The notes under the pieces are model-generated. The model was not told the DNA's origin. It was given only the letters and a program-made list of their open reading frames with translations, and searched no databases. From Candidatus Limimonas egerieequi (lineage in GTDB: Bacteria > Bacillota > Clostridia > Oscillospirales > Acutalibacteraceae): a DNA stretch of 64,000 nucleotides. This document shows, in pieces, positions 21,912 through 39,893 of this stretch (the stretch's first letter is position 1; each line of letters begins with the position of its first letter). The stretch is taken from assembly GCA_018064455.1 (NCBI GenBank), contig JAGHVH010000010.1, positions 62,001-126,000 on the forward strand, read 5' to 3'. A program made the translations under genes and the position numbers.

Positions 21912-22163
21912 ATGATTATTGAAAGTGCAAAGGTAATGTCCAAGGGTCAAATAACTTTGCCAAAAGAAATTAGAGAGGCATTAGGTGTCAGCACTGGTGA
22001 CCGTGTTACAATAATTTGTGATGGGTCACAAGCACACATGATGAATTCTTCTGTATATGCTTTAAAATTTCTTCAAGATGAATTAAAAGGTCTTGCAGAT
22101 GAAAAAGGATTAACAGAGGATGATATTATGGATCTTGTTGCTGAGATAAGGAATAAACGTTGA
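21912..22163 (+). CDS. AbrB/MazE/SpoVT-family antitoxin (VapB-like)
   Basis: 83 residues from the ATG behind AAAGGAGG; the track start is too early. 'SAKVMSKGQITLPKEIREALGVSTGDRVTII' is the swapped-hairpin AbrB DNA-binding domain (1-48), followed by a helical tail that would neutralise a partner toxin. Such antitoxins in Firmicutes are normally followed by a PIN-domain VapC. Here the next reading frame starts on its last codons (TTG within cgTTGA) as VapC, but stops after 13 codons. Own promoter and probable operator upstream. Confidence 0.88.
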   Translation: MIIESAKVMSKGQITLPKEIREALGVSTGDRVTIICDGSQAHMMNSSVYALKFLQDELKGLADEKGLTEDDIMDLVAEIRNKR

Positions 22164-22230
22164 AGGTCTTTATTGATACAAACGTAATTTATAAATCCTA
22201 AATTTGAAAGTGTTGGTAGATAGGGGATTT
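22160..22230 (+). pseudogene. VapC (PIN-domain) toxin remnant
   Basis: From the TTG overlapping the antitoxin stop the frame reads 'LKVFIDTNVIYKS' and stops. 'FIDTNVI' is the classic PIN-domain N-terminus carrying the first catalytic aspartate. The following bases in a shifted frame read 'PKFESVGR' and stop, which could be a piece of the C-terminus. A full VapC has about 130 residues, so the catalytic core is gone. Confidence 0.7.
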
Positions 22231-22231
22231 T

Positions 22232-22259
22232 AAGCCAGGCAGAAGCCTGGCTTTGTTTG
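22232..22259 (+). terminator. GCCAGGC-family terminator (copy 2)
   Basis: AAGCCAGGC-agaa-GCCTGGCTTTGTTT, immediately before long repeat copy A. Confidence 0.88.
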
Positions 22260-22260
22260 T

Positions 22261-22529
22261 ATCTGGCGGTCAATCCGCGCTCACACAGTAAAAGGTACCG
22301 CTGCGTAATTGGTAGCGCAGTCTGTTCGCATGTCAAGGCACGCAAGCTCTAAAGGCCTTGACAAAGCTCACAGCCAGCGCTACGGGCTAGATATCACCAG
22401 CAAAGGTAAACTTTGCTGGGCGCAAGTAACAACTATGTGTGGAGGCGAGTGGGATGGCCGCTCGTCAGTAATTTCTAACCGTTCGTAGGAAATGCGTCCG
22501 TTTTTGCTCTGTTTTGGGATATATAAGTA
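22261..22529 (+). repeat. Long boundary repeat, copy A
   Basis: About 270 bases. A multi-hairpin part (22261-22455) is followed by the short repeat (22456-22529). Visible hairpins: GCGG-tcaat-CCGC, CTGCG..CGCAG, TGTCAAGGC..GCCTTGACA (9 bp), CCAGCAAAG-gtaaa-CTTTGCTGG (9 bp). Copies B and C at 26259 and 27699 are nearly identical by eye. The ends GCGGTCA and TGACCGC (TGGCCGC in this copy) are inverted. No open reading frame is conserved across all three copies. Confidence 0.88.
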
Positions 22530-22539
22530 TAAAGATTTA

Positions 22540-22580: not shown

Positions 22581-22673
22581 ATGTATAGATTGTTTGTAAT
22601 GACAAAAGAATTTGATACTAAAGAAGAACGAGCTGCAATTAAGGAAGTAGTAAAATTGTTGAAGAATAATTGA
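22581..22673 (+). pseudogene. HigB-like toxin with in-frame internal deletion (30 residues)
   Basis: Not in the ORF track. ATG behind GTAGGTG, reading 'MYRLFVMTKEFD' joined directly to 'TKEERAAIKEVVKLLKNN'. In HigB/RelE-family toxins that pair with this kind of antitoxin, the chain begins xxFVMTKEFDK and ends with an LSKEERxAIKKxIExLK helix, with about 70 residues of catalytic core between. Here both ends are kept in frame and the core is missing. Promoter, ribosome site and coupling to the antitoxin (10 bases downstream) are intact. It cannot be an active ribonuclease, but still permits translation of the antitoxin. Confidence 0.72.
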
Positions 22674-22682
22674 GGTGATCAT

Positions 22683-23000
22683 ATGTCAGATTTATATAAG
22701 AGTTTATTGCAAGGCTTAAATGAAGCTGTTGAACATGAAAAAGGCACATTGACACTTAAAACTGCAGCAGTTGAAATAAATCCTGTAGAGGAGTTTACGG
22801 CTAAAGAAGTTAAAACTATCAGAAACAACCTCAATATGTCTCAGTCTGTTTTTGCGGTTCTCATGGGCGTGTCTAATAAAACGGTAGAGGCATGGGAAGC
22901 TGGAACAAATAAACCTACTGGTTCTGCCAGAAGATTGCTTGGAATGTTGAAAGAGGATAGTAATATACCTCAAAAATACAATATTGTTGTTTTAAAGTAA
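22683..23000 (+). CDS. HigA-like XRE antitoxin
   Basis: 105 residues, ATG behind GAGGTGATC. N-terminal 'LYKSLLQGLNEAVEHEKGTLTLKTAAVEI' and C-terminal helix-turn-helix 'MSQSVFAVLMGVSNKTVEAWEAGTNKPTGSARRLLGML' match the HigA/NadS-type antitoxins of Firmicutes that bind DNA and a RelE-fold toxin. The upstream toxin gene is reduced to 30 codons, so this is a functional orphan expressed from the ancestral promoter, where it could still neutralise an incoming cognate HigB. Confidence 0.9.
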   Translation: MSDLYKSLLQGLNEAVEHEKGTLTLKTAAVEINPVEEFTAKEVKTIRNNLNMSQSVFAVLMGVSNKTVEAWEAGTNKPTGSARRLLGMLKEDSNIPQKYNIVVLK

Positions 23001-25097: not shown

Positions 25098-25259
25098 ATG
25101 TCAGAACTTAGAGATGAACTTTTACAGGAAACAACAGGTGGTTGCCCAGAAGAGCGTACAGTATTAGGTGGTATGCCAAAGATTAATCCAGATGAGAAAT
25201 ATGTATTAACACATAATATGCCTCAAAAGTCAGATGATGAAAAATACGTAATGAAGTAA
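25098..25259 (+). CDS. Double-glycine leader peptide 1 (bacteriocin/signal-like)
   Basis: 53 residues from the ATG behind AAAGGAGG; the track start is upstream of the promoter region. 'MSELRDELLQETTGG' resembles the N-terminal leader of peptides exported and cut by C39-type peptidase ABC transporters, with the cut expected after GG. The mature part (38 residues) is hydrophilic, with a cysteine right after the leader. It shares promoter architecture with two other peptide genes nearby. No exporter or modification gene lies adjacent, so the transporter must be elsewhere. Confidence 0.7.
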   Translation: MSELRDELLQETTGGCPEERTVLGGMPKINPDEKYVLTHNMPQKSDDEKYVMK

Positions 25260-25310: not shown

Positions 25311-25339
25311 TTGACTTATACGTATTAAAGGCGCATAAT
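25311..25339 (+). promoter_or_regulatory. Promoter of the orphan hicB cassette
   Basis: TTGACT, 17-base spacer, CATAAT. The track's start codon for the next gene lies in this -10 box, which rules it out and supports the ATG at 25359. Confidence 0.75.
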
Positions 25340-26230: not shown

Positions 26231-26257
26231 TAAGCCAGGCGGCCTGGCTTATTTTTG
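26231..26257 (+). terminator. GCCAGGC-family terminator (copy 6)
   Basis: TAAGCCAGGC-GCCTGGCTTA with almost no loop, then ATTTTTGT, just before long repeat copy B. Confidence 0.8.
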
Positions 26258-26258
26258 T

Positions 26259-26526
26259 ATCTGGCGGTCAATCCGTGCTCACACAGTAAAAGGAATCGCT
26301 GCGTAATTGGCAGCGCAGTCTGCTCGCATGTCAAGGCACGCAAGCTCTGAAGGCCTTGACAAAGCTCTCAGCCAGCGCTACGGGCTAGATATCACCAGCA
26401 AAGGTAAACTTTGCTTGGCGCAAGTAACAACTATGTGTGGAGGCGAGTGGGATGACCGCTCGTCAGTAATTTCTAACCGTTTGTAGGAAATGCGTCCGTT
26501 TTTGCTTAATTTTGGGATATATATAG
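26259..26526 (+). repeat. Long boundary repeat, copy B
   Basis: Aligns with copies A (22261) and C (27699) over its whole length with scattered single-base differences, such as CTTTGCTTGG instead of CTTTGCTGGG in the last hairpin. Contains the same hairpin series and ends in the short repeat. Confidence 0.88.
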
Positions 26527-26557
26527 GAAATGATTTTACTCTTGCTGAGTAAATGAA

Positions 26558-27667: not shown

Positions 27668-27697
27668 TAAGCCAGGCAGTTGCCTGGCTTATTTTTG
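27668..27697 (+). terminator. GCCAGGC-family terminator (copy 8)
   Basis: TAAGCCAGGC-agtt-GCCTGGCTTATTTTTG, directly before long repeat copy C. Confidence 0.85.
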
Positions 27698-27698
27698 T

Positions 27699-27967
27699 AT
27701 CTGGCGGTCAATCCGCGCTCACACAGCAAAAGGAATCGCTGCGTAATTGGTAGCGCAGTCTGCTCGCATGTCAAGGCACGCTATGCTCTGAAGGCCTTGA
27801 CATTGCTCTCAGCCAGCGCTACTGGCTAGACATCACCAGCAAAGGTGAACTTTGCTGGGCGCAAGTAACAACTATGTGAGAAGGTGAGTGGGATGACCGC
27901 TCGTCAGTAATTTCTAACCGTTCGTAGAAAATGCGTCCGTTTTTACCTGATTTTGGGATATATAAAT
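27699..27967 (+). repeat. Long boundary repeat, copy C
   Basis: Third long copy. Compared with A and B it restores GCCAG-cgcta-CTGGC to a perfect stem and keeps TGTCAAGGC/GCCTTGACA and CCAGCAAAG/CTTTGCTGG, while loop bases differ. Ends in the short repeat form. Confidence 0.87.
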
Positions 27968-28007
27968 GAGGGATGTGCCTCAATATATCCTAATTGGAGG
28001 TGAAATT

Positions 28008-28471: not shown

Positions 28472-28499
28472 GGCAGGCTGTAAAGCCTGCCTTTTTTTG
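28472..28499 (+). terminator. Terminator, variant of the family
   Basis: GGCAGGC-tgtaaa-GCCTGCC with a T-run of seven; arms differ from the GCCAGGC family by inversion of CA/AG. Confidence 0.9.
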
Positions 28500-28502
28500 T
28501 TT

Positions 28503-28526
28503 GATTTTAGGATATATAAATAGGGG
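28503..28526 (+). repeat. Partial boundary repeat (right end only)
   Basis: GATTTTAGGATATATAAATAGGGG matches the right tail of the boundary repeats (compare GATTTTGGGATATATAAATG in copy C). Confidence 0.6.
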
Positions 28527-28541
28527 ATCCAAAAATAAGCA

Positions 28542-28570
28542 TTGACAATATAGGTTTAAACCTATATAAT
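28542..28570 (+). promoter_or_regulatory. Promoter with 20-base operator, relE remnant/HTH cassette
   Basis: TTGACA, 17 bases, TATAAT: a consensus promoter. The perfect palindrome ATATAGGTTTAAACCTATAT (28548-28567) fills the spacer and enters the -10 box. Confidence 0.85.
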
Positions 28571-28583
28571 CGGAGGCGAGAAA

Positions 28584-28751
28584 ATGAACTTCGAAGTAGA
28601 GTTCTTTGAAAAAAACGGTAAATGTCCTGTGGCTGAGTTTATCCTATGGTTTTACAAAAAGACGCAAAAGACACCCTCTAAGCAAATAGAATTAGCAAAA
28701 TCGTATATGAAAGAGTACTACAGTGAGGTGAAAAATAATGAAGTCGGATGA
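28584..28751 (+). pseudogene. Gp49/RelE-type toxin with in-frame internal deletion (55 residues)
   Basis: Not in the ORF track. ATG behind GGAGGCG. Reads 'MNFEVEFFEKNGKCPVAEFI' followed at once by 'WFYKKTQKTPSKQIELAKSY'. Full-length phage-derived Gp49-like toxins (about 115 residues) begin NFEVEFYE..GKCPVxEFL and end NGFxKKTQKTPxxEIExAKxR, with the catalytic beta-sheet between. Here the middle (roughly 55-60 residues) is missing but the frame is kept through to the stop, which overlaps the antitoxin start by 14 bases. Promoter and ribosome site are excellent, so it is still expressed. Confidence 0.75.
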
Positions 28752-29016
28752 ATTTTTTGAAAAACTTATGGAAGATCCTCAATATAGAGAAGAATATGAA
28801 AAAATGCAACCTGAAACGGAGCTTGTTAAAGCTTTACTTAAAGCAAGAAAGGATGCACGTTTAACTCAGGCTGAGTTATCAGAAAAATCTGGTGTTGCAC
28901 AAGCCGATATTAGCAAAATAGAAAGTGGTAAAGGTAATCCAACTCTCAAGATGATTATTCGTCTTGCTGAAGCGATGAATAGCCATGTTGAATTAAAAAT
29001 AATTCCAAATTCATAA
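28738..29016 (+). CDS. XRE-family antitoxin (HigA-like)
   Basis: 92 residues, ATG behind GAGGTG. 'VKALLKARKDARLTQAELSEKSGVAQADISKIESGKGNPTLKMIIRLAEAMNSHVELKIIP' is the helix-turn-helix antitoxin usually paired with Gp49-like toxins. Starts inside the end of the deleted toxin gene, so translation is coupled. Complete, and resembles the orphan at 26611. Confidence 0.9.
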   Translation: MKSDEFFEKLMEDPQYREEYEKMQPETELVKALLKARKDARLTQAELSEKSGVAQADISKIESGKGNPTLKMIIRLAEAMNSHVELKIIPNS

Positions 29017-29020
29017 TTGT

Positions 29021-29046
29021 AAGCCAGGCAACGCCTGGCTTTTTAT
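29021..29046 (+). terminator. GCCAGGC-family terminator (copy 9)
   Basis: AAGCCAGGC-aac-GCCTGGCTTTTTATT. Confidence 0.88.
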
Positions 29047-29595: not shown

Positions 29596-29757
29596 ATGGC
29601 AGAACTTAAAGATAAAGATTTACAGCAGGTAGACGGCGGTTTCGAATTTAATGTTCCTGATAGTAAAAAAGAGTATGAACCTCATTTTTATGATGATAAG
29701 CCACTTACACCAGAAGAACTCCTTGATGTTACAGCTGGTACAGATGACAAAAGATAA
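29596..29757 (+). CDS. Double-glycine leader peptide 2
   Basis: 53 residues, too short for the ORF track; ATG behind TAGGAGG. 'MAELKDKDLQQVDGG' is a textbook double-glycine leader (bacteriocin/peptide pheromone type, ELxxxxLxxVxGG). The mature part is acidic and lacks cysteines, so it looks more like a signal or unmodified peptide than a lanthipeptide. Shares its promoter with the peptides at 25098 and 30306(-). Confidence 0.78.
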   Translation: MAELKDKDLQQVDGGFEFNVPDSKKEYEPHFYDDKPLTPEELLDVTAGTDDKR

Positions 29758-30305: not shown

Positions 30306-30488
30306 TTAATCATCAATTACCAATATTGGCTTTCCGTTTTTACCGTGTTCTAATATTGGTGATGGATAATTTGGAGTTCCTACTATTTTACTATCATTAT
30401 AACCGCATACACCACCAACGTTAGATTCTTCATTTGAACCGATACCACCGTTTACCTGTTCAAGTTCTTTTTCCTTTATCTCTGCCAT
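30306..30488 (-). CDS. Double-glycine leader peptide 3
   Basis: 60 residues, ATG behind AAGGAGG. 'MAEIKEKELEQVNGG' is a double-glycine leader almost the same as that of peptide 2. The mature part (45 residues) contains one cysteine, a glycine/asparagine-rich start and a C-terminal 'ILVIDD'. Encoded on the opposite strand but with the same promoter as the other two peptides. Confidence 0.78.
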   Translation of the reverse strand: MAEIKEKELEQVNGGIGSNEESNVGGVCGYNDSKIVGTPNYPSPILEHGKNGKPILVIDD

Positions 30489-31317: not shown

Positions 31318-33063
31318 ATGACGGATTTAGAATTGAAAGAATTAAAGGATAATTTATGGCATGCTGCAGATATGCTTCGTGCTGGAGCACACCTTGCTGC
31401 TAATAAATATGGTCAGCCAATTCTTGGACTGATTTTTCTTCGTTATGCGGATATTCTTTATAAACATCATAAAGGTGAAATTGATACCGAATATAATAAA
31501 CTAAAAGGCGGACGAATGGAAAAGTCGTATAAGGAAATTGCAATTGAAAAATGCGGTTTCTTTTTGCCTGAGTGTGCCTATTATGACTTTATTAACAATT
31601 CTCCTGATGATGCTAACAAGGCAACACTTGTTAAAAAGGCAATGGAAGCAATAGAGGATGAAAATCCAAAAATGGCGAATGTTTTACCAAAAGAGGTATA
31701 TGCTCAACTCGTTCCGGAAGAGGAACCAGAACTTCTTTCCAAAATTATTCGAGTATTTAAAGATATTCCTGAGGACTGCACTGTTGACATTTTTGGTGAG
31801 ATTTATGAATACTTCCTTGGAAATTTTGCTTTAAGTGAAGGCAAAGATGGCGGAACATTTTACACACCAGCAACCGTTGTTCAATATATGGTTGAAGTCT
31901 TAAATCCTCAGCCTGGTGATAAGAAGTTTTTAGATCCTGCCTGTGGTTCTGGCGGTATGTTTGTTCAAGCGGCTAGATATATGCATCGTCATAATGCAAA
32001 TGATGATGAGCGAATGAACTTTCGTTGTTATGGTGTGGAAAAAGAGCCTGATACAGTAAAACTAGCAAAAATGAATCTTCTTCTTAACAACGTGCGCGGA
32101 GAGATTACAGAGGCTAATTCTTTTTATTCTGACCCATATAATGCATTTGGTCAATTTGATTATGTTATGGCAAATCCACCGTTTAATGTTGATGAGGTTG
32201 TTGTCGACAAAGTGATTAGCGATGCACGTTTTAATACTTATGGTGTGCCAAGAAATGCAACCAAAACTACAAAAAAGGCATCCGATAAAAAAGAAACTGT
32301 ACCTAACGCAAATTATTTGTGGATTGGTTATTTTGCGACGGCTTTGAATGATAATGGTAAAGCTGCGTTAGTTATGGCAAATTCTGCATCAGATGCAGGA
32401 AAAAGTGAATATGAAATCCGTAAGAAGATGATTGAGGAAGGCATTATCTCTCAAATGGTGACATTACCATCAAATATGTTTACATCGGTTACACTTCCTG
32501 CAACGTTATGGTTTTTCGATAAAGCGAAGACAACTAGAGATAAAAAGGATGAAATTCTTTTTGTTGATGCGCGTAATGTTTATACAAAAATTCCGCATGA
32601 TCGTGCTCACCGGAAGTTTAGTGACGAGCAAATTAAAAATCTTGGCATCATTACACGCCTTTATAATGGCAATACGGATGCATTTTTTGCGTTGATTGAT
32701 GAATACCAAAAAGAATTATTAATTGCTCCTGAAACTAGTAGTGATGATAATGTTAAAACAAAAGCTTACTGGCAAGAGCAAATTGATTGGTTGTTGGAAC
32801 GTTTTCCTGATGGAAGATATCAAGATGTTGTTGGACTTTGTAAAGTCGCAAAACTTGATGGTGAGGATGGTATTGTGGATCAAGATTATTCACTAAATGT
32901 AGGACGTTACGTTGGTGTAATGGTTGAAGATGATGGTATGACCGAGGATGAGTTTAAGGAAACTATGGTTAATCTTGGAGAAGATTTTGAAATGCTAAAT
33001 GCCGAAGCAAAGTCACTTGTAGGACAGATTTCAGACAATTTGAAAAAACTGTTTGAGGTGTAA
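31318..33063 (+). CDS. hsdM: Type I restriction-modification system, methyltransferase subunit
   Basis: 581 residues, ATG behind AGGAGA. N-terminal helical domain 'LWHAADMLRAGAHLAANKYGQPILGLIFLRYAD' (HsdM_N), then an N6-adenine methyltransferase with motif I 'FLDPACGSGGMF' (about 204-216) and catalytic motif IV 'NPPFN' (about 285). It methylates the recognition adenines and forms the M2S core. First gene of a six-gene operon. Confidence 0.97.
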   Translation: MTDLELKELKDNLWHAADMLRAGAHLAANKYGQPILGLIFLRYADILYKHHKGEIDTEYNKLKGGRMEKSYKEIAIEKCGFFLPECAYYDFINNSPDDANKATLVKKAMEAIEDENPKMANVLPKEVYAQLVPEEEPELLSKIIRVFKDIPEDCTVDIFGEIYEYFLGNFALSEGKDGGTFYTPATVVQYMVEVLNPQPGDKKFLDPACGSGGMFVQAARYMHRHNANDDERMNFRCYGVEKEPDTVKLAKMNLLLNNVRGEITEANSFYSDPYNAFGQFDYVMANPPFNVDEVVVDKVISDARFNTYGVPRNATKTTKKASDKKETVPNANYLWIGYFATALNDNGKAALVMANSASDAGKSEYEIRKKMIEEGIISQMVTLPSNMFTSVTLPATLWFFDKAKTTRDKKDEILFVDARNVYTKIPHDRAHRKFSDEQIKNLGIITRLYNGNTDAFFALIDEYQKELLIAPETSSDDNVKTKAYWQEQIDWLLERFPDGRYQDVVGLCKVAKLDGEDGIVDQDYSLNVGRYVGVMVEDDGMTEDEFKETMVNLGEDFEMLNAEAKSLVGQISDNLKKLFEV

Positions 33064-33064
33064 A

Positions 33065-34303
33065 ATGAAACGAAATTATAAAAGTATATCCGAAATAGGA
33101 ATGGTTATTACTGGAAAAACACCTTCTACAAATAATGATTCATTTTTTGAAGGACCTTTTCCATTTATTACTCCATCAGATATCCATACATATGATGAAA
33201 AATATCTTATGTCTACCGAACGCACTTTATCAGAATCTGGAGCTAATATTTTAAAGAGCAATAAATTGCCCCCAAATAGTATTTGTTTTGTTTGTATTGG
33301 ATCTACTATTGGAAAGATGTGTAAAACAAATCAAGTATCATATACAAACCAACAGATAAATTCAATTGTTCCAAAATCATCATATGATAGCGATTATATA
33401 TTTTATTATCTTCGATATGTAAAAAGTTATTTTCAATTGGTAGGAGGAGGTACTGGATCTGGTAAAGGTATAGTAAATAAATCACTTTTTTCTAAAACAA
33501 AGATTGAAGTTATTGAAGACAAAAAGAAACAATTTGAAGTTGCTTCAATTCTTTCTACGTTTGATGCTCTAATTGAAGTTAACAATAAACGTATCAAGAT
33601 TTTAGAACAAATGGCAGAAAACTTATATAAAGAGTGGTTTGTACGTTTTCGTTTTCCAGGCAATGAAAATACTCGGTTCGAAAATGGCTTTCCGAGTTGT
33701 TGGGAAGAAAAAAGACTTTGTGATTTCGGAATTACTTTGGATTCTGGTTCAAGACCTTCTGGTGGTATCGATGATAGCATTGTTGATGGAATTGCGTCAC
33801 TAGGTGCTGAAGCAGTTAATGGCTTGGCTGAGTTTGATTATTCTAATGTAAAGATGATCTCAAAAGAATATTACACTAAAATGAACCGCGGAAAGAGTAC
33901 TGGAAATGATATTCTTGTGTATAAGGATGGAGCATATATTGGTAAAATTACAATGTTTAGAAATGATTTTCCGTTTAAGGAATTTGCTGTAAATGAGCAT
34001 GTGTTTTTGCTGAGCGCCACTGACAATGAATATCAAAATTATTTGTATTTTACGCTTCATTTACCTGAATATTTTATATTGATGCAAAATTTGAATCGAA
34101 ATGCAGCACAACCCGGGTTGAGCAAACTTGATATATATAAAATAAAAATCACCATTCCTGATAAGAAAACGATTTTGCTATTTAACTCTTTTGTGGAACC
34201 AATAATTGATGAGATATTTAATATTGCAAAACAAAATCGAATTCTTGCTAAACAAAGAGATTTATTACTTCCGCGTTTAATGAGTGGAAGATTGGAGGTG
34301 TAA
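33065..34303 (+). CDS. hsdS: Type I restriction-modification system, specificity subunit
   Basis: 412 residues from the ATG two bases after hsdM, behind GAGGTG. Two target-recognition domains: the first begins 'SISEIGMVITGKTPSTNNDSFFEGPFPFITPSDI' and the second 'LCDFGITLDSGSRPSGGIDDSI'. Each is followed by a conserved helical spacer ('FDALIEVNNKRIKILEQMAENLYKEW', 'QNRILAKQRDLLLPRLMSG'). It decides the bipartite DNA target. Confidence 0.95.
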   Translation: MKRNYKSISEIGMVITGKTPSTNNDSFFEGPFPFITPSDIHTYDEKYLMSTERTLSESGANILKSNKLPPNSICFVCIGSTIGKMCKTNQVSYTNQQINSIVPKSSYDSDYIFYYLRYVKSYFQLVGGGTGSGKGIVNKSLFSKTKIEVIEDKKKQFEVASILSTFDALIEVNNKRIKILEQMAENLYKEWFVRFRFPGNENTRFENGFPSCWEEKRLCDFGITLDSGSRPSGGIDDSIVDGIASLGAEAVNGLAEFDYSNVKMISKEYYTKMNRGKSTGNDILVYKDGAYIGKITMFRNDFPFKEFAVNEHVFLLSATDNEYQNYLYFTLHLPEYFILMQNLNRNAAQPGLSKLDIYKIKITIPDKKTILLFNSFVEPIIDEIFNIAKQNRILAKQRDLLLPRLMSGRLEV

Positions 34304-34305
34304 TT

Positions 34306-34917
34306 ATGCCTCTCTTACAGAACGGAGTATATGTAGAAAATAGCGATAAGCCATATGAGTTAGAAACAGTATATTATTTGAATTTTCATATTTTAAGTGC
34401 GTTGTTTTCTATTGAACGCTTATACTCCTTTGAGACAAACGAAATATGGAATAATAAGGTTCAGTACTATCATTATTATGCGGATCATTTATTGTTTTGC
34501 GTTGGACAAATAGCAAATCGTTTTGTTGATGGAAACAGTAAAAAATCACTGTTAGAACGAAAACGTATAAATCGAGGAAATTTTAATTTTACTGATGAAA
34601 AATATCCCATATTATCAAATAAGAGTGCTAGAAATGTTATAGAACATATTGATGAGCGAAATCAAAAAATCATTGCGAACAAGCAAGGAGTGGGAGGTTT
34701 CAATATAATTGATGATGCTACCTCGCTGGAATTAACAAAGACTTTAAGAGAAAGAACTGATTCTCATCCATATACGCTTGACTTGATTAAAAAAGAATTG
34801 TTAATTAGAGATAACGAAAGTGATTTAGTAATTAACATAGATTATCTTAAACAGGAATTAGAGTTATTACATAAGAGCGTTATATATTTTGAGCAAATAA
34901 TAACTGACTTGTTTTAA
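34306..34917 (+). CDS. Uncharacterised protein in the hsd operon, HEPN-like motif
   Basis: 203 residues, two bases after hsdS. Mostly helical. 'ARNVIEHIDERNQ' (R109-N-V-I-E-H114) fits the Rx4-6H motif with a polar residue after R, characteristic of HEPN ribonucleases. An earlier helix 'YYADHLLFCVGQIANRF' is compatible with a HEPN bundle. No known accessory name is recognised. Location between hsdS and hsdR makes it a candidate anti-phage effector or regulator. The HEPN assignment is inference from one short motif. Confidence 0.7.
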   Translation: MPLLQNGVYVENSDKPYELETVYYLNFHILSALFSIERLYSFETNEIWNNKVQYYHYYADHLLFCVGQIANRFVDGNSKKSLLERKRINRGNFNFTDEKYPILSNKSARNVIEHIDERNQKIIANKQGVGGFNIIDDATSLELTKTLRERTDSHPYTLDLIKKELLIRDNESDLVINIDYLKQELELLHKSVIYFEQIITDLF

Positions 34918-34942
34918 CCAAATATTGAAAGGTAATTTGCAT

Positions 34943-36136
34943 ATGTCAGAAAAATCAGAGCTACTATTAAATTTGTCTGTTTTGACGGATTTTCGCAACA
35001 CGATTAACTCTTCTCCAATTTTTGTGAATTCTGAGAAGCATTGTCATCGTTATAACCTAATTTGCACTGTTATGGATCGAATTGATAGCGCGGTTAAAGT
35101 ATTAAATGAATATGGTGAACAGCCAAAATCTGAGGAAAGTTTTATTATGTTCCTTGTTTATGCTTGCATGTTAAAGGATGGAATTTATAAGCTTTACGAA
35201 AATGTGTTTCATAAAAAACCGCCATGTGTAGATTCGAGTAGGTACCTATCAAATGTTTGCAAGTATTCTGAAGCAGTTTTTCAAAATGATGATTGTCCTA
35301 CGGATGATGTGTTGTTTGAATACTTACGTGCAATGGCTTTTGCTCATCCTTATGACACTAATCATCGGAATCGTCGTTCGTTTCTAGATACTGGCGAGAA
35401 TCATTGCTGTCCATGGGTAATTGTGAGCACACCTCCAATTCTAAAGATTAAGAATCCTGTAGGAATACGAATATATTCTAACAAAAAAGAAGATGGAATG
35501 ACGGATGTATATATATCTTTTGATGATTTAAAAGCATACGTAAAAAGTAGATATGACTTACTCGCAAATTTAAATAATTGGGCAATTCTTGCGGTTCAAG
35601 AACAGAATAGTGAATGGATTAAAAGCAAAATCAACCGTAATCTTTCACCAATTGAAATATTAATAGAGATAGATAATATTTTGGAAGAACGATTTGATGA
35701 AAACTATGGTATAAAAACCGCAATCATTGATTTGAATTGTACTTTATCATTGGAAGAAAATAATAGGTCAGTAGAACAATATCGTAATGCGATAGTCTCT
35801 ATTGTTCCAGAACTATGCGATGCCATAGATTGTTTAGATCATGAACAAATTGATAAATTGATTGGTAAAGTTGTATATAGTTGCCCTAAAACAATGCATA
35901 AAATGGGTTATTATCAATTAGAAAAAATTTTTAGTTATTTATATGTAAGAAGTACCGAAATAGACCCTTTGTCTAATGAATCTTGGGGATTAAAACAAGC
36001 ACATGCTTTTTCACAAGGATTTGCTAAAGAGTGGGTAACAATTGATGTAAACACAATGTCATACGATGAAATTAAACTGTTAGTTAGAACAGCGTGCTAT
36101 TTAGAAAATATGAGGCAATCGGGTGAGAAGGAATAA
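34943..36136 (+). CDS. Uncharacterised protein in the hsd operon
   Basis: 397 residues from the ATG at 34943; the longer frame starts with TTG. Soluble, helical at both ends. 'EYLRAMAFAHPYDTNHRNRRSF' (residues about 127-147) contains R-x5-H and a cluster of basic residues and is the most motif-like part. 'WVIVSTPPILKIKNPVGIRIYSNKKEDGMTDVYISFDDLKAYVKSRYDLL' looks like a beta-rich insert. Overlaps the next gene by one base. No family recognised. Confidence 0.72.
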   Translation: MSEKSELLLNLSVLTDFRNTINSSPIFVNSEKHCHRYNLICTVMDRIDSAVKVLNEYGEQPKSEESFIMFLVYACMLKDGIYKLYENVFHKKPPCVDSSRYLSNVCKYSEAVFQNDDCPTDDVLFEYLRAMAFAHPYDTNHRNRRSFLDTGENHCCPWVIVSTPPILKIKNPVGIRIYSNKKEDGMTDVYISFDDLKAYVKSRYDLLANLNNWAILAVQEQNSEWIKSKINRNLSPIEILIEIDNILEERFDENYGIKTAIIDLNCTLSLEENNRSVEQYRNAIVSIVPELCDAIDCLDHEQIDKLIGKVVYSCPKTMHKMGYYQLEKIFSYLYVRSTEIDPLSNESWGLKQAHAFSQGFAKEWVTIDVNTMSYDEIKLLVRTACYLENMRQSGEKE

Positions 36137-36663
36137 TGCTACTTGACGGATATTGGAAAAAGGATTTGAAATCCATTATTAAGCAATTAGAATTCTGGAG
36201 CAAAAGACCTTTTTTGTTTTCTCAAAGATTTGCTGAACATCAAATCAATAAAGGGGTACTTTGTTCTGCAGTAATTATTAGGAAAATTATTGAAGATGAA
36301 AAAGATGTTAAACCTTTTTTTGATGAATGCAGTGAATCTGAGAAATATTTGAAGACTTTATTTTATGATGTTCCAGTAGTTAAATATAATCATGTGGGTG
36401 ATGGTGATTTATTTATCAATTCAAAAGTAATTATTGAAGATTACGATACAAAAAATGCTGAAAAGGAAACGGTTCATTTATCTATGGTTTGCAACCAACT
36501 CATTCACTCTTATGTATGGAGCTTGATATATTGCTATAATGGTAAGAGAATTTTTGGATTTATGGTTGCTTCTGATAATTTAAAGGAAAAAGAAGCATTA
36601 TTTATAAAAATAGATGATTGGATTAATGTAATTCATTTTGTAATAGATAACGCTATCATTTGA
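36136..36663 (+). CDS. Uncharacterised protein in the hsd operon
   Basis: 175 residues, start overlapping the previous stop (TAATG). 'AVIIRKIIEDEKD' near residue 45 and 'HLSMVCNQLIHSYVWSLIYC' near 120 are the most distinctive parts, followed by a beta-hairpin ('GKRIFGFMVASDN'). I have a weak memory of small proteins with this RK..E / N.LIHS pattern, but cannot name a family. Tight coupling with the 34943 gene and hsdR suggests that the two or three proteins work together. Confidence 0.7.
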   Translation: MLLDGYWKKDLKSIIKQLEFWSKRPFLFSQRFAEHQINKGVLCSAVIIRKIIEDEKDVKPFFDECSESEKYLKTLFYDVPVVKYNHVGDGDLFINSKVIIEDYDTKNAEKETVHLSMVCNQLIHSYVWSLIYCYNGKRIFGFMVASDNLKEKEALFIKIDDWINVIHFVIDNAII

Positions 36664-36677
36664 AAAGGGGGTTCAAA

Positions 36678-39600
36678 ATGCGTAGCTTTATTTCAGAGGA
36701 CAATATTGAACAGGCGATACTTGATAAGCTTTCAGTTGAACCTTTTAGATATGATATTATCCATTGTGACGCAGATCCCACAAAGCGCGATGTGCTTCCA
36801 GATGGGACTGGACGTGACAATAAAAAACAATGTGTTCTTCCAAAGGTGTTAAAGACATCTCTTGCGCGTATTAACCCAACAATTTCAGAAGATAAAATTG
36901 ATTCTGCCGTAAAGGAACTTTCTCGTGATTTCACTGGTTCTGATATGACGGCTACTAATTATTTACTTTACAATCAAATTCGCAATGGTATAAAGATTAG
37001 TCTTCGTAGAAATGGAAAAGAAGATTTTGATTTTATCAAGCTAGTCGATTTTGAGCACCCTGAAAACAATACTTTTACCGCTGTTTCTCAAATGTGGATA
37101 CAGGGTAAGGTATATTATCGTCGTCCTGATGTACTAATTTTTGTTAATGGTATGCCGATGGTGTTTATTGAGTTGAAAAATAGCACTGTTAAAGTAAAAG
37201 TTGCATACGACGACAATCTTACAAATTACAAGAAGGATATTCCTAATTTATTCGCATTTAATCAAATGTGCGTATTATCTAATGGCATTGAAACAAAAAT
37301 TGGTGCTTTTAATGCTAGTTATGATTACTTTTTTGAATGGTTAAAAGTACATTCTGAAAAAGAAAGTTTAAATCGTGAATACCTTAGGCAAGTTGATATG
37401 GCGAAAAACAGTTCTATCCGTTTGTTCGTTGATGGTCTTCTTGATAAATCACGACTAATTGACTATATAGAAAACTTTATTATGTTCCAAAATCAGTCAA
37501 TTAAAATTCTTGCAAAGAACCACCAGTTTCATGGTGTTAATAACTTAATGAAATCTGTAAACAACCGACAAGAATTAGGTGGCAAATTAGGTGTGTTTTG
37601 GCATACACAAGGTTCTGGAAAATCTTATTCAATGGTTTTTTTTGCACGGAAGGTTAAACGTAAGGTAGAGGGCAATTTTTCATTCCTTATTGTTACTGAC
37701 CGTGAGGACTTAGATGACCAAATCCATAAAAACTTTGTTCGCACGGAAGTTATTGGTCCAAAAGATGAATGTCAGCCAAAGAATGGTGAACAATTACGTC
37801 AGTTTTTGCAGACAAACAAAGGCTTTATATTCACTTTGATACATAAATTCCGCTATAACAAAGGAGAAAAGTACCCAGTTCTTTCTACGCGTGATGATAT
37901 TTTCGTTCTTGTGGATGAAGCACATCGCACACAGTATAAGGATCTTGCGGAAAACATGAGAACGGCGCTTCCAAATGCAAACTATATTGCTTTTACTGGC
38001 ACTCCATTGCTTGGCTCAAAGCGTCTTACAAATCAGTGGTTTGGTAATTATATTTCTGAATATAATTTTGCACAGTCGATTGAGGATGGCTCTACGGTGC
38101 CACTGTTTTATTCTCGTCGCGTACCTGAGGTTGGTCTTGAAAACGATTTTCTTGATGATGATGTTGTTGATATTATCGAGGATGAAAATTTAAATGAAGA
38201 AGAAACTCGACTTCTCGAAAACTCTGCGTCACGAATCCTTGAAGTAATTAAGCGCGAAAATCGTTTGGACAAAATTGCTCAGGATATAGCTCATCATTTT
38301 CCACGTCGTGGTTTTCTTGGAAAAGGACTTGTGGTGTCTGTAGATAAATACACGGCTGTTCGTATGTATGACAAAGTTCAATATTATTGGGCAATTGAAA
38401 AAACTGCTATTATGCAAGAACGCAATGCTGCAAAAACAAAAGCTGAACGTGATAAGTTTACTAATATTTTGAATTATATGAATAGCGTTGATATGGCAGT
38501 TGTTATTTCTGAAGATGCCGATGAGGTTGAAAAATTTCAAAAGCAGGGGCTTGATATTACTACACATCGACAAAAGATGAACTATATTTCTCCTGAAGGC
38601 AAAGATATTGAAGATAGATTTAAAGATCCAAATGATTCGCTTCAACTTGTCTTTGTATGCGCTATGTGGCTGACTGGATTTGATGTTCCAAATCTTTCTA
38701 CACTTTATTTGGATAAACCAATGAAAGGTCACACGTTAATGCAAGCTATTGCTCGTGCCAATCGTGTGTTCCCAGAGAAATCGTGCGGTATTGTTGTTGA
38801 TTACGTAAATGTATTTAAGTATATGCAAAAAGCACTTACGGAATATGCAACGGGCGATGATGGAACTGAGTTCCCAGCAAAGGATATAGACAAATTAATT
38901 GGATATATTGATGCTACAATCGATGAAGCAGATACCTTTCTAAAAGGTATTGGTATTGATATCGGTGAAATTATTGAAGAGTCTTCAACATTAGACCGTC
39001 TTGATGAAATAAGATCTGCATATGATAAGATTGTTGCTCATGAAGAGGATGAGGATAGGTTCAAAGTTATTTTGAATACACTTATAAATCTTTATGATGC
39101 ATCAAAGCCTGAAATATTTGAAAAGAATTGGACTAATGAAAAATTCCCACCACTTATTTACTTGCACGGTCTATTCTATAAGAAGATTGATGACGAAAAA
39201 ATTGCGCGTGCAAGGCTTAAAATGGCGCAGGTGCTTGATACGTCAGTTACTTCTTCTGATGCAGATGATGAAAGTGAGTATGTAATACATCAAGGAAAGG
39301 TTCTTGATCTTTCAAAAATTAATGTTGATGAACTTAGGCAAGAGATTAAGGTTGCAAAGTATAAAGCAATTGAAATTGATGATTTGAAAGATTTTATTGA
39401 AAAAGTTCTTGAGCAAATGATTAATCGTAACTGTACTCGCAAAAAGTTTTCTGAACGATATAAAAATATTATTGATCGATATAATGCTGGTGGTTCAGAG
39501 AATGAAGATTATTATGAGCAACTTGTTAAACTAATTGAAGAGTTGAAAAATGAAGATAAACGTGCGGAAACAGAGGGCTTAACTGAAGAAGAACTTGAAA

Positions 39601-39893
39601 TTTACGATCTTTTAGTTGCTGGAAAGAAACTAACTAGTGAAGAGGAACAAAAAGTAAAACTATCAGCTAAGCATTTGTTTAAAAAACTCTCTGAAAATAA
39701 AAAAGAATTACTTGTTGTTGATTGGTATAAAGATGATCAACCAAGAGCAAAGGTAAAAACGGCAATAGAAACATCGTTAAATGATGATTTGCCAGAAAGT
39801 TATGACAAAGACTTTTTTGCTGTTAAGATTGATCTTTTGATGATGCACTTTATTGATATGGCTGTTCAAGGATATGGTTGGATTGCAGCATAA
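36678..39893 (+). CDS. hsdR: Type I restriction-modification system, endonuclease/translocase subunit
   Basis: 1071 residues from the ATG behind AAAAGGGGG; the track start is within the preceding gene. PD-(D/E)XK nuclease '[21 protein letters not shown]' (about 145-165), SF2 translocase motifs Walker A '[10 protein letters not shown]' (about 312), DEAH box '[12 protein letters not shown]' (about 412), 'AFTGTPLLG' (about 438) and '[34 protein letters not shown]' (motifs V/VI). Helical C-terminus contacts the M2S core. Apparently intact. Confidence 0.97.
   Translation: [1071 protein letters not shown]

Follow-up and report, generated by a model that had tools for sequence, protein, structure and literature searches.

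In the M. tuberculosis toxin HigB-TAC, residues K58, E66, R68, N73, R77, Q98 and K99 adjoin the mRNA and K95 is catalytic, and alanine at K58, R68, N73, R77, K95 or K99 impairs toxicity (PMC9098466). That toxin-antitoxin (TA) pairs degrade, that orphan antitoxins persist and that such antitoxins may act in anti-addiction are also established ideas (PMC2654758, PMC7167474, PMC7192599, PMC7354431). The locus described here resembles the HigBA systems of the Gp49 family (S. pneumoniae HigB, PDB 6AF3/6AF4; HigB-TAC, PMC9098466) in that an HTH antitoxin adjoins a toxin gene with homologous N- and C-terminal ends, and its toxin-first order is that of the intact relatives found in this work. Unlike those systems, it has lost by deletion the toxin core with most of the catalytic residues, such that positions 28584-28751 encode no working toxin. 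We consider it highly probable that 28584-29016 is a decayed type II TA operon, in which a Gp49/HigB-type toxin was gutted by an internal deletion and an orphan antitoxin was left. The window, meaning the whole 64,000-nucleotide stretch of DNA that was analysed, is C9:62001-126000 of a 1.7-Mb draft genome (46 contigs, 86% complete).

A toxin gene reduced to its two ends

The forward-strand ORF at 28584-28751 encodes 55 residues, MNFEVEFFEKNGKCPVAEFILWFYKKTQKTPSKQIELAKSYMKEYYSEVKNNEVG, in a frame that is open throughout, and fuses in frame the first 21 and the last 34 or so residues of a Gp49/HigB-type toxin of 116-121 residues. The N-terminal remnant spans 28584-28646 (+; 21 codons, MNFEVEFFEKNGKCPVAEFIL), the C-terminal remnant spans 28647-28751 (+; WFYKKTQKTPSKQIELAKSYMKEYYSEVKNNEVG and the stop codon), and a ribosome-binding site, GGAGG, precedes them at 28572-28576 (+). 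Since intact homologues are 116-121 residues long, about 64 codons (about 190 nt) are gone. Intact relatives of this kind came from the genus itself (L018), from the family (L020, L021 and others) and from a scaffold of a faecal phage (L115).

Descent from the Gp49 family is evident at both ends. Part-models for the N end, the core and the C end were built from 11 intact toxins of the family and run against the 64-kb window and 14 kb of contig C3 in all six frames, which gave 4620 stop-to-stop pieces. The best N and C matches in these 78 kb both fell on the 28584-28751 ORF (E=2e-7 and 3e-9, rank 1 each), the runners-up were the two ends of a second remnant on C3 (N, E=3e-4; C, E=2e-5), and the next matches stood at E of about 1 or worse. 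The core part-model found no match at either locus in the same six-frame space, and a PF05973 (Gp49) search of the whole genome returned neither a toxin core nor an intact Gp49 toxin. Against the Pfam profile itself, residues 22-43 of the remnant align with positions 69-90 of 90 (E=0.0015), at 19.0 bits and thus under the gathering score of 23.9. What adjoins the antitoxin is therefore a remnant only, and not the intact toxin beside a cognate antitoxin that defines a type II pair. The earlier note had read this ORF as the two ends of a known Gp49/RelE-type toxin, joined in an intact frame with about half of the protein missing, upstream of an intact antitoxin gene; its coordinates and frame are borne out, and the part-models, the lengths of the homologues and the domain match of the antitoxin agree with the rest.

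Alignment with full-length Gp49-like toxins, which the note had proposed as a check, assigns residues 1-21 and 22/23-55 of the remnant to the two toxin ends. The left boundary rests on the L115 and L062 homologues: with a slash for the breakpoint, the faecal phage homologue reads ...GTCPVEEFIL/KQDNKM..., and relatives with CPVEEFIL/KQ.. and EFIL/SL.. also place it after L21. The right breakpoint lies at or just before F23 (relatives: ..NG/FIKKTQKTP). MAFFT alone puts ILWFY of the remnant elsewhere within the gap, and the breakpoint was taken from the relatives' sequences. No direct repeat is visible at the junction, 28646/28647, for which no close intact relative was found for comparison; the deletion is known from one draft genome.

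Aligned to S. pneumoniae HigB (6AF3), the remnant lacks the equivalents of K58, E66, R68, N73 and R77 of HigB-TAC. Its F23, K25, Q28 and K29 correspond to F93, K95, Q98 and K99, the only segment kept, and the full catalytic set (the equivalents of K58, E66, R68, N73, R77, K95 and K99) is not present in the 55-residue ORF. AlphaFold2, given an alignment of natural homologues only, predicted two helices and no sheet, at low confidence (mean pLDDT 63, pTM 0.35). Judged by the residues that it retains, the 55-residue product is very unlikely to be toxic.

An intact antitoxin and an intact control region

The antitoxin gene at 28738-29016 (+) encodes an intact HTH protein of 92 residues (HTH_3, E=5e-14; no stops), 39-43% identical to antitoxins that are paired with intact Gp49 toxins. 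It has no intact cognate toxin and no toxin core was found for it, which makes it an orphan antitoxin. Its start overlaps the remnant ORF by 14 nt, and its ribosome-binding site, GAGGTG (28725-28730, +), lies inside the retained 3' end of the toxin gene. A genome contig search with this antitoxin yielded no close orthologue and no more than two HTH proteins, both distant and both from MAGs of gut Clostridia; by these two relatives alone, the genome under study is probably a gut clostridial MAG too.

Upstream, a sigma-70 promoter, TTGACA-17-TATAAT (28542-28570, +), matches the consensus at 12 of 12 positions, consensus being the sole basis for the call, and ends 13 nt before the remnant start codon. 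Between its -35 and -10 elements stands a perfect 20-nt palindrome, ATATAGGTTTAAACCTATAT (28548-28567, +), a probable operator for the antitoxin, whose fully complementary arms, ATATAGGTTT/AAACCTATAT, fill the 17-nt spacer; an arm of 10 or more arose in 6 of 5000 shuffles. Most intact relatives examined have the same promoter layout, with related palindromes such as ATATAGGATWWATCCTATAT in the spacer. Further upstream, at 28494-28530 (+), is the 3' half of a dispersed promoter-like repeat (TTTTTGTTTGATTTTAGGATATATAAATAGG...; family D3, by alignment of copies), which precedes most TA cassettes of the array and of which the gutted Gp49 operon keeps only this half. A terminator hairpin, AAGCCAGGCAACGCCTGGCTT (29021-29041, +), follows the antitoxin. 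By consensus match and palindrome, then, the antitoxin has kept its own promoter and operator; because the promoter is perfect and the palindrome is like those of intact relatives, the gene still looks expressed and autoregulated, as we infer from these signals. Since the antitoxin ribosome-binding site falls within the part of the toxin gene that was kept, and the control region has survived intact, the retained pieces are those that the antitoxin needs for its expression.

Toxin losses in the same genome and in its relatives

Two or three losses of a similar kind accompany the Gp49 remnant in this genome. On contig C3, a second Gp49 toxin without a core, here out of frame, stands before an intact HTH antitoxin; it reads MSNYSLVLYKKENGKVPIQEFYDEL.. 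and then, in another frame, SLEISRAIQYRDDYRKR.., and lies behind a copy of the same dispersed repeat as in the window and a shared promoter start, AGCATTGACAATAT. Its N-terminal part, by the full-length model, is longer than that of the remnant in the window and its C-terminal part is shorter, and because the retained ends differ, the two deletions are probably independent. The palindrome at the C3 locus is degraded. In the window itself, a gutted RelE-type toxin at 22581-22673 (+) consists of MYRLFVMTKEFD joined in frame to TKEERAAIKEVVKLLKNN, with N and C part-models of its own matching at rank 1 in the same frame (E=0.015 and 3e-4) and no core between them; its intact homologues are PF06296/RelE, and it is followed by an intact XRE-type antitoxin (22683-23000, +; HTH_3, E=1e-6) whose homologues are paired with intact toxins. 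The earlier note had written of a toxin gutted again before a good antitoxin, and this second locus justifies the word. At 22160-22201 (+), a PIN-domain toxin is reduced to an N-terminal stub, MKVFIDTNVIYKS (PIN N part-model rank 1, E=0.04), which begins MKVFIDTNVI and then stops; the intact AbrB/MazE-type antitoxin of this locus lies at 21912-22163 (+; PF04014, E=4e-10), and its homologues are followed by intact PIN toxins. The string NPKFESVGR at about 22190-22226 suggests a PIN C-terminal remnant by eye; the PIN C part-model gave no match, and we do not claim it.

The gutted loci in the window belong to a run of TA loci that occupies 21.9-29.5 kb of the window and comprises AbrB with the PIN stub, the gutted RelE with its XRE antitoxin, a HicB-like protein, two HTH proteins, HicA-HicB, BrnT with a small partner, the gutted Gp49 with its HTH antitoxin, and AbrB/MazE. 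A similar AAGCCAGGC..GCCTGGCTT terminator closes many of them, and the genome still has intact HicA, BrnT and RelE toxins. Antitoxin-like genes at 25338, 25936, 26611 and 29241 (HicB-like, two HTH and AbrB/MazE) have no recognisable toxin beside them. Just downstream of the array, at 31318-39893, methylase, specificity and helicase-like subunits, judged by eye, form a type I restriction-modification-like cluster, a defence-island-like setting. Near the TA array, at 25098-25259, 29596-29757 and 30306-30488 (minus), lie genes for small proteins whose leaders (MSELRDELLQETTGG.., MAELKDKDLQQVDGG.., MAEIKEKELEQVNGG..) are double-glycine-like and which are possible peptide or bacteriocin precursors.

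Antitoxins of the three kinds found at the window loci were sought in 398 genomes of the family, and the neighbouring toxin was classified. Elsewhere in the family 26 of 40 toxins were intact, three were core-deleted (L100, L105, L107) and the others were frameshifted, partial or missing, whereas none of the five antitoxin loci surveyed in the genome under study had an intact toxin and three of the five showed core deletions with both ends kept. The two comparisons (intact; core-deleted) each give Fisher p=0.01, a value that is only indicative, since counts are small and it was the window that led to the loci of this genome. Two of the core-deleted cases, L105:360-452 and L107 (minus strand), are PIN toxins of two other genera in which LTGDKDFLES.. 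or TGDKDFLES.. is joined to an MRVL-like start; in each, an intact AbrB antitoxin gene lies immediately upstream.

Dispersed repeats run through the array. An element of about 72 nt, GACCRYTCGT..AATTTC..ACCRTTCGTAG..GCGTCCGTTTTT..TTTTGGGATATATAA, has copies in the window at 22456, 25787, 26454, 26934 and 27895, in L006, L008 and L009, and at G002:C94, G002:C37, G008:C1, G008:C6 and G010:C191. It precedes TA loci (window, G002), ssb (four species of the genus) and a TadZ-like gene (two), and contains 9-nt direct repeats 12-13 nt apart and a -10-like TATATAA. Lying between TA cassettes, it first resembled the recombination site of an integron-like cassette array, a reading that we rejected; given its position upstream of ssb and the TadZ-like gene, its 9-nt repeats and its -10-like box, it looks like a regulatory element, and TA loci may belong to a regulon that it marks out. 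The 9-nt direct repeats may resemble LytTR-type regulator sites. The element is carried at the 3' end of a 283-nt dispersed repeat (window 22256-22538, 26254-26536 and 27695-27977; C3:64434-64702), of which partial copies occur at further places in the genome and genus, and whose inner part resembles a tRNA D-arm (AATTGGTAGCGCAG). A search of the repeats against Rfam gave no match at the gathering score.

Decay, its alternatives and known systems

We propose that an internal deletion of about 190 nt took out the catalytic core of a ribosome-dependent, mRNA-cleaving toxin of Gp49/HigB type while sparing promoter, operator and the start of the toxin gene, together with its 3' end, which bears the antitoxin ribosome-binding site. 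The 55-residue product would be inert, and the operon would now serve only an orphan HTH antitoxin that is presumably still autoregulated. Deletions that spare the antitoxin survive because loss of the antitoxin while the toxin is present is lethal, and their survival suffices to account for the persistence of the two toxin ends. The antitoxin that was kept may guard the cell against related toxins brought in by plasmids or phages, or may merely linger; a selective reason for its retention is conjectural. Homologous intact toxins are present on phage records. Taken together, these loci are best read as repeated decay of toxin genes through internal deletions that leave promoter, ribosome-binding site and antitoxin untouched.

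It could be argued that the 55-residue protein has a function, as a non-toxic co-repressor that binds the antitoxin or as a leader translationally coupled to it, and the open frame, the good ribosome-binding site, the 14-nt overlap and the equally in-frame RelE-type remnant would all suit such a role. Yet the C3 paralogue is out of frame, the predicted structure has no RelE-type sheet, and a conserved in-frame short form was found neither in 300 genomes of the family nor in plasmids or viral contigs; two phage records opened out of 47 weak matches contained no short form, and the best phage match is an intact 116-residue toxin. A functional product is accordingly improbable, and the importance that the earlier note had implied for the open frame finds no support. 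Both-end core deletions number three in this genome (the two Gp49 loci and the RelE locus), and two of three in frame is unremarkable, since one in three is expected by chance; the open frame of the 55-residue ORF is probably luck. That the organism itself has no deletion, and that the sequence reflects an artefact of assembly or binning, is an explanation that a draft in 46 contigs at 86% completeness might invite, but we give it very little credence: the site falls within a contig of 273 kb and the C3 paralogue, whose break points differ, within one of 86 kb, the whole assembly holds no Gp49 core, and unrelated toxin families of the genome show the same kind of loss. The absent core and the separate deletion of the paralogue likewise exclude a small sequencing error as the cause, an objection that the earlier note had itself raised.

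Selection might instead have favoured gutted toxins, with the lineage keeping regulated orphan antitoxins, under a promoter-like repeat in common, as an anti-addiction shield. The deficit of intact toxins relative to the rest of the family (0 of 5 against 26 of 40; Fisher p=0.01), the four antitoxin-like genes that stand without a toxin, and a repeat that precedes both TA cassettes (window, G002) and ssb in four species of the genus speak for it; but numbers are small and the window was chosen because of its losses, HicA, BrnT and RelE toxins are still intact, the gutted Gp49 operon has only half of the repeat, and neutral decay predicts the same picture, so that we regard active selection as unlikely. 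Less probable still is a broader version, in which the lineage systematically strips TA toxin cores and keeps the antitoxins as a regulated immunity set against addiction modules that enter during DNA uptake, several of them behind a promoter-like repeat common to ssb and a pilus-type (TadZ-like) gene.

Recurrent decay thus remains the reading that we prefer, and the significance of the gutted Gp49 locus is modest, the decay of a toxin to leave an orphan antitoxin being ordinary, known gene decay in which only the clustering within one genome is mildly unusual. The locus does offer a clear and dissectable example of the passage from TA pair to orphan antitoxin in one step, with the core lost and the control region and antitoxin staying, and several unrelated gutted toxins make this genome a good place to ask whether such antitoxins are selected for anti-addiction or are lingering. 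Like the orphan antitoxins and anti-addiction modules described earlier (PMC7192599, PMC7354431; ccdEch, Erwinia), the gene at 28738-29016 is an antitoxin without its toxin, and by analogy it may neutralise related toxins. The ccdO157 system of E. coli, as it is cited in PMC2654758 and PMC7167474, is likewise a TA system degenerating in the chromosome; unlike ccdO157 as presented there, the present case shows clean internal deletion of the toxin, with both ends and the antitoxin left, in unrelated toxins of one genome.
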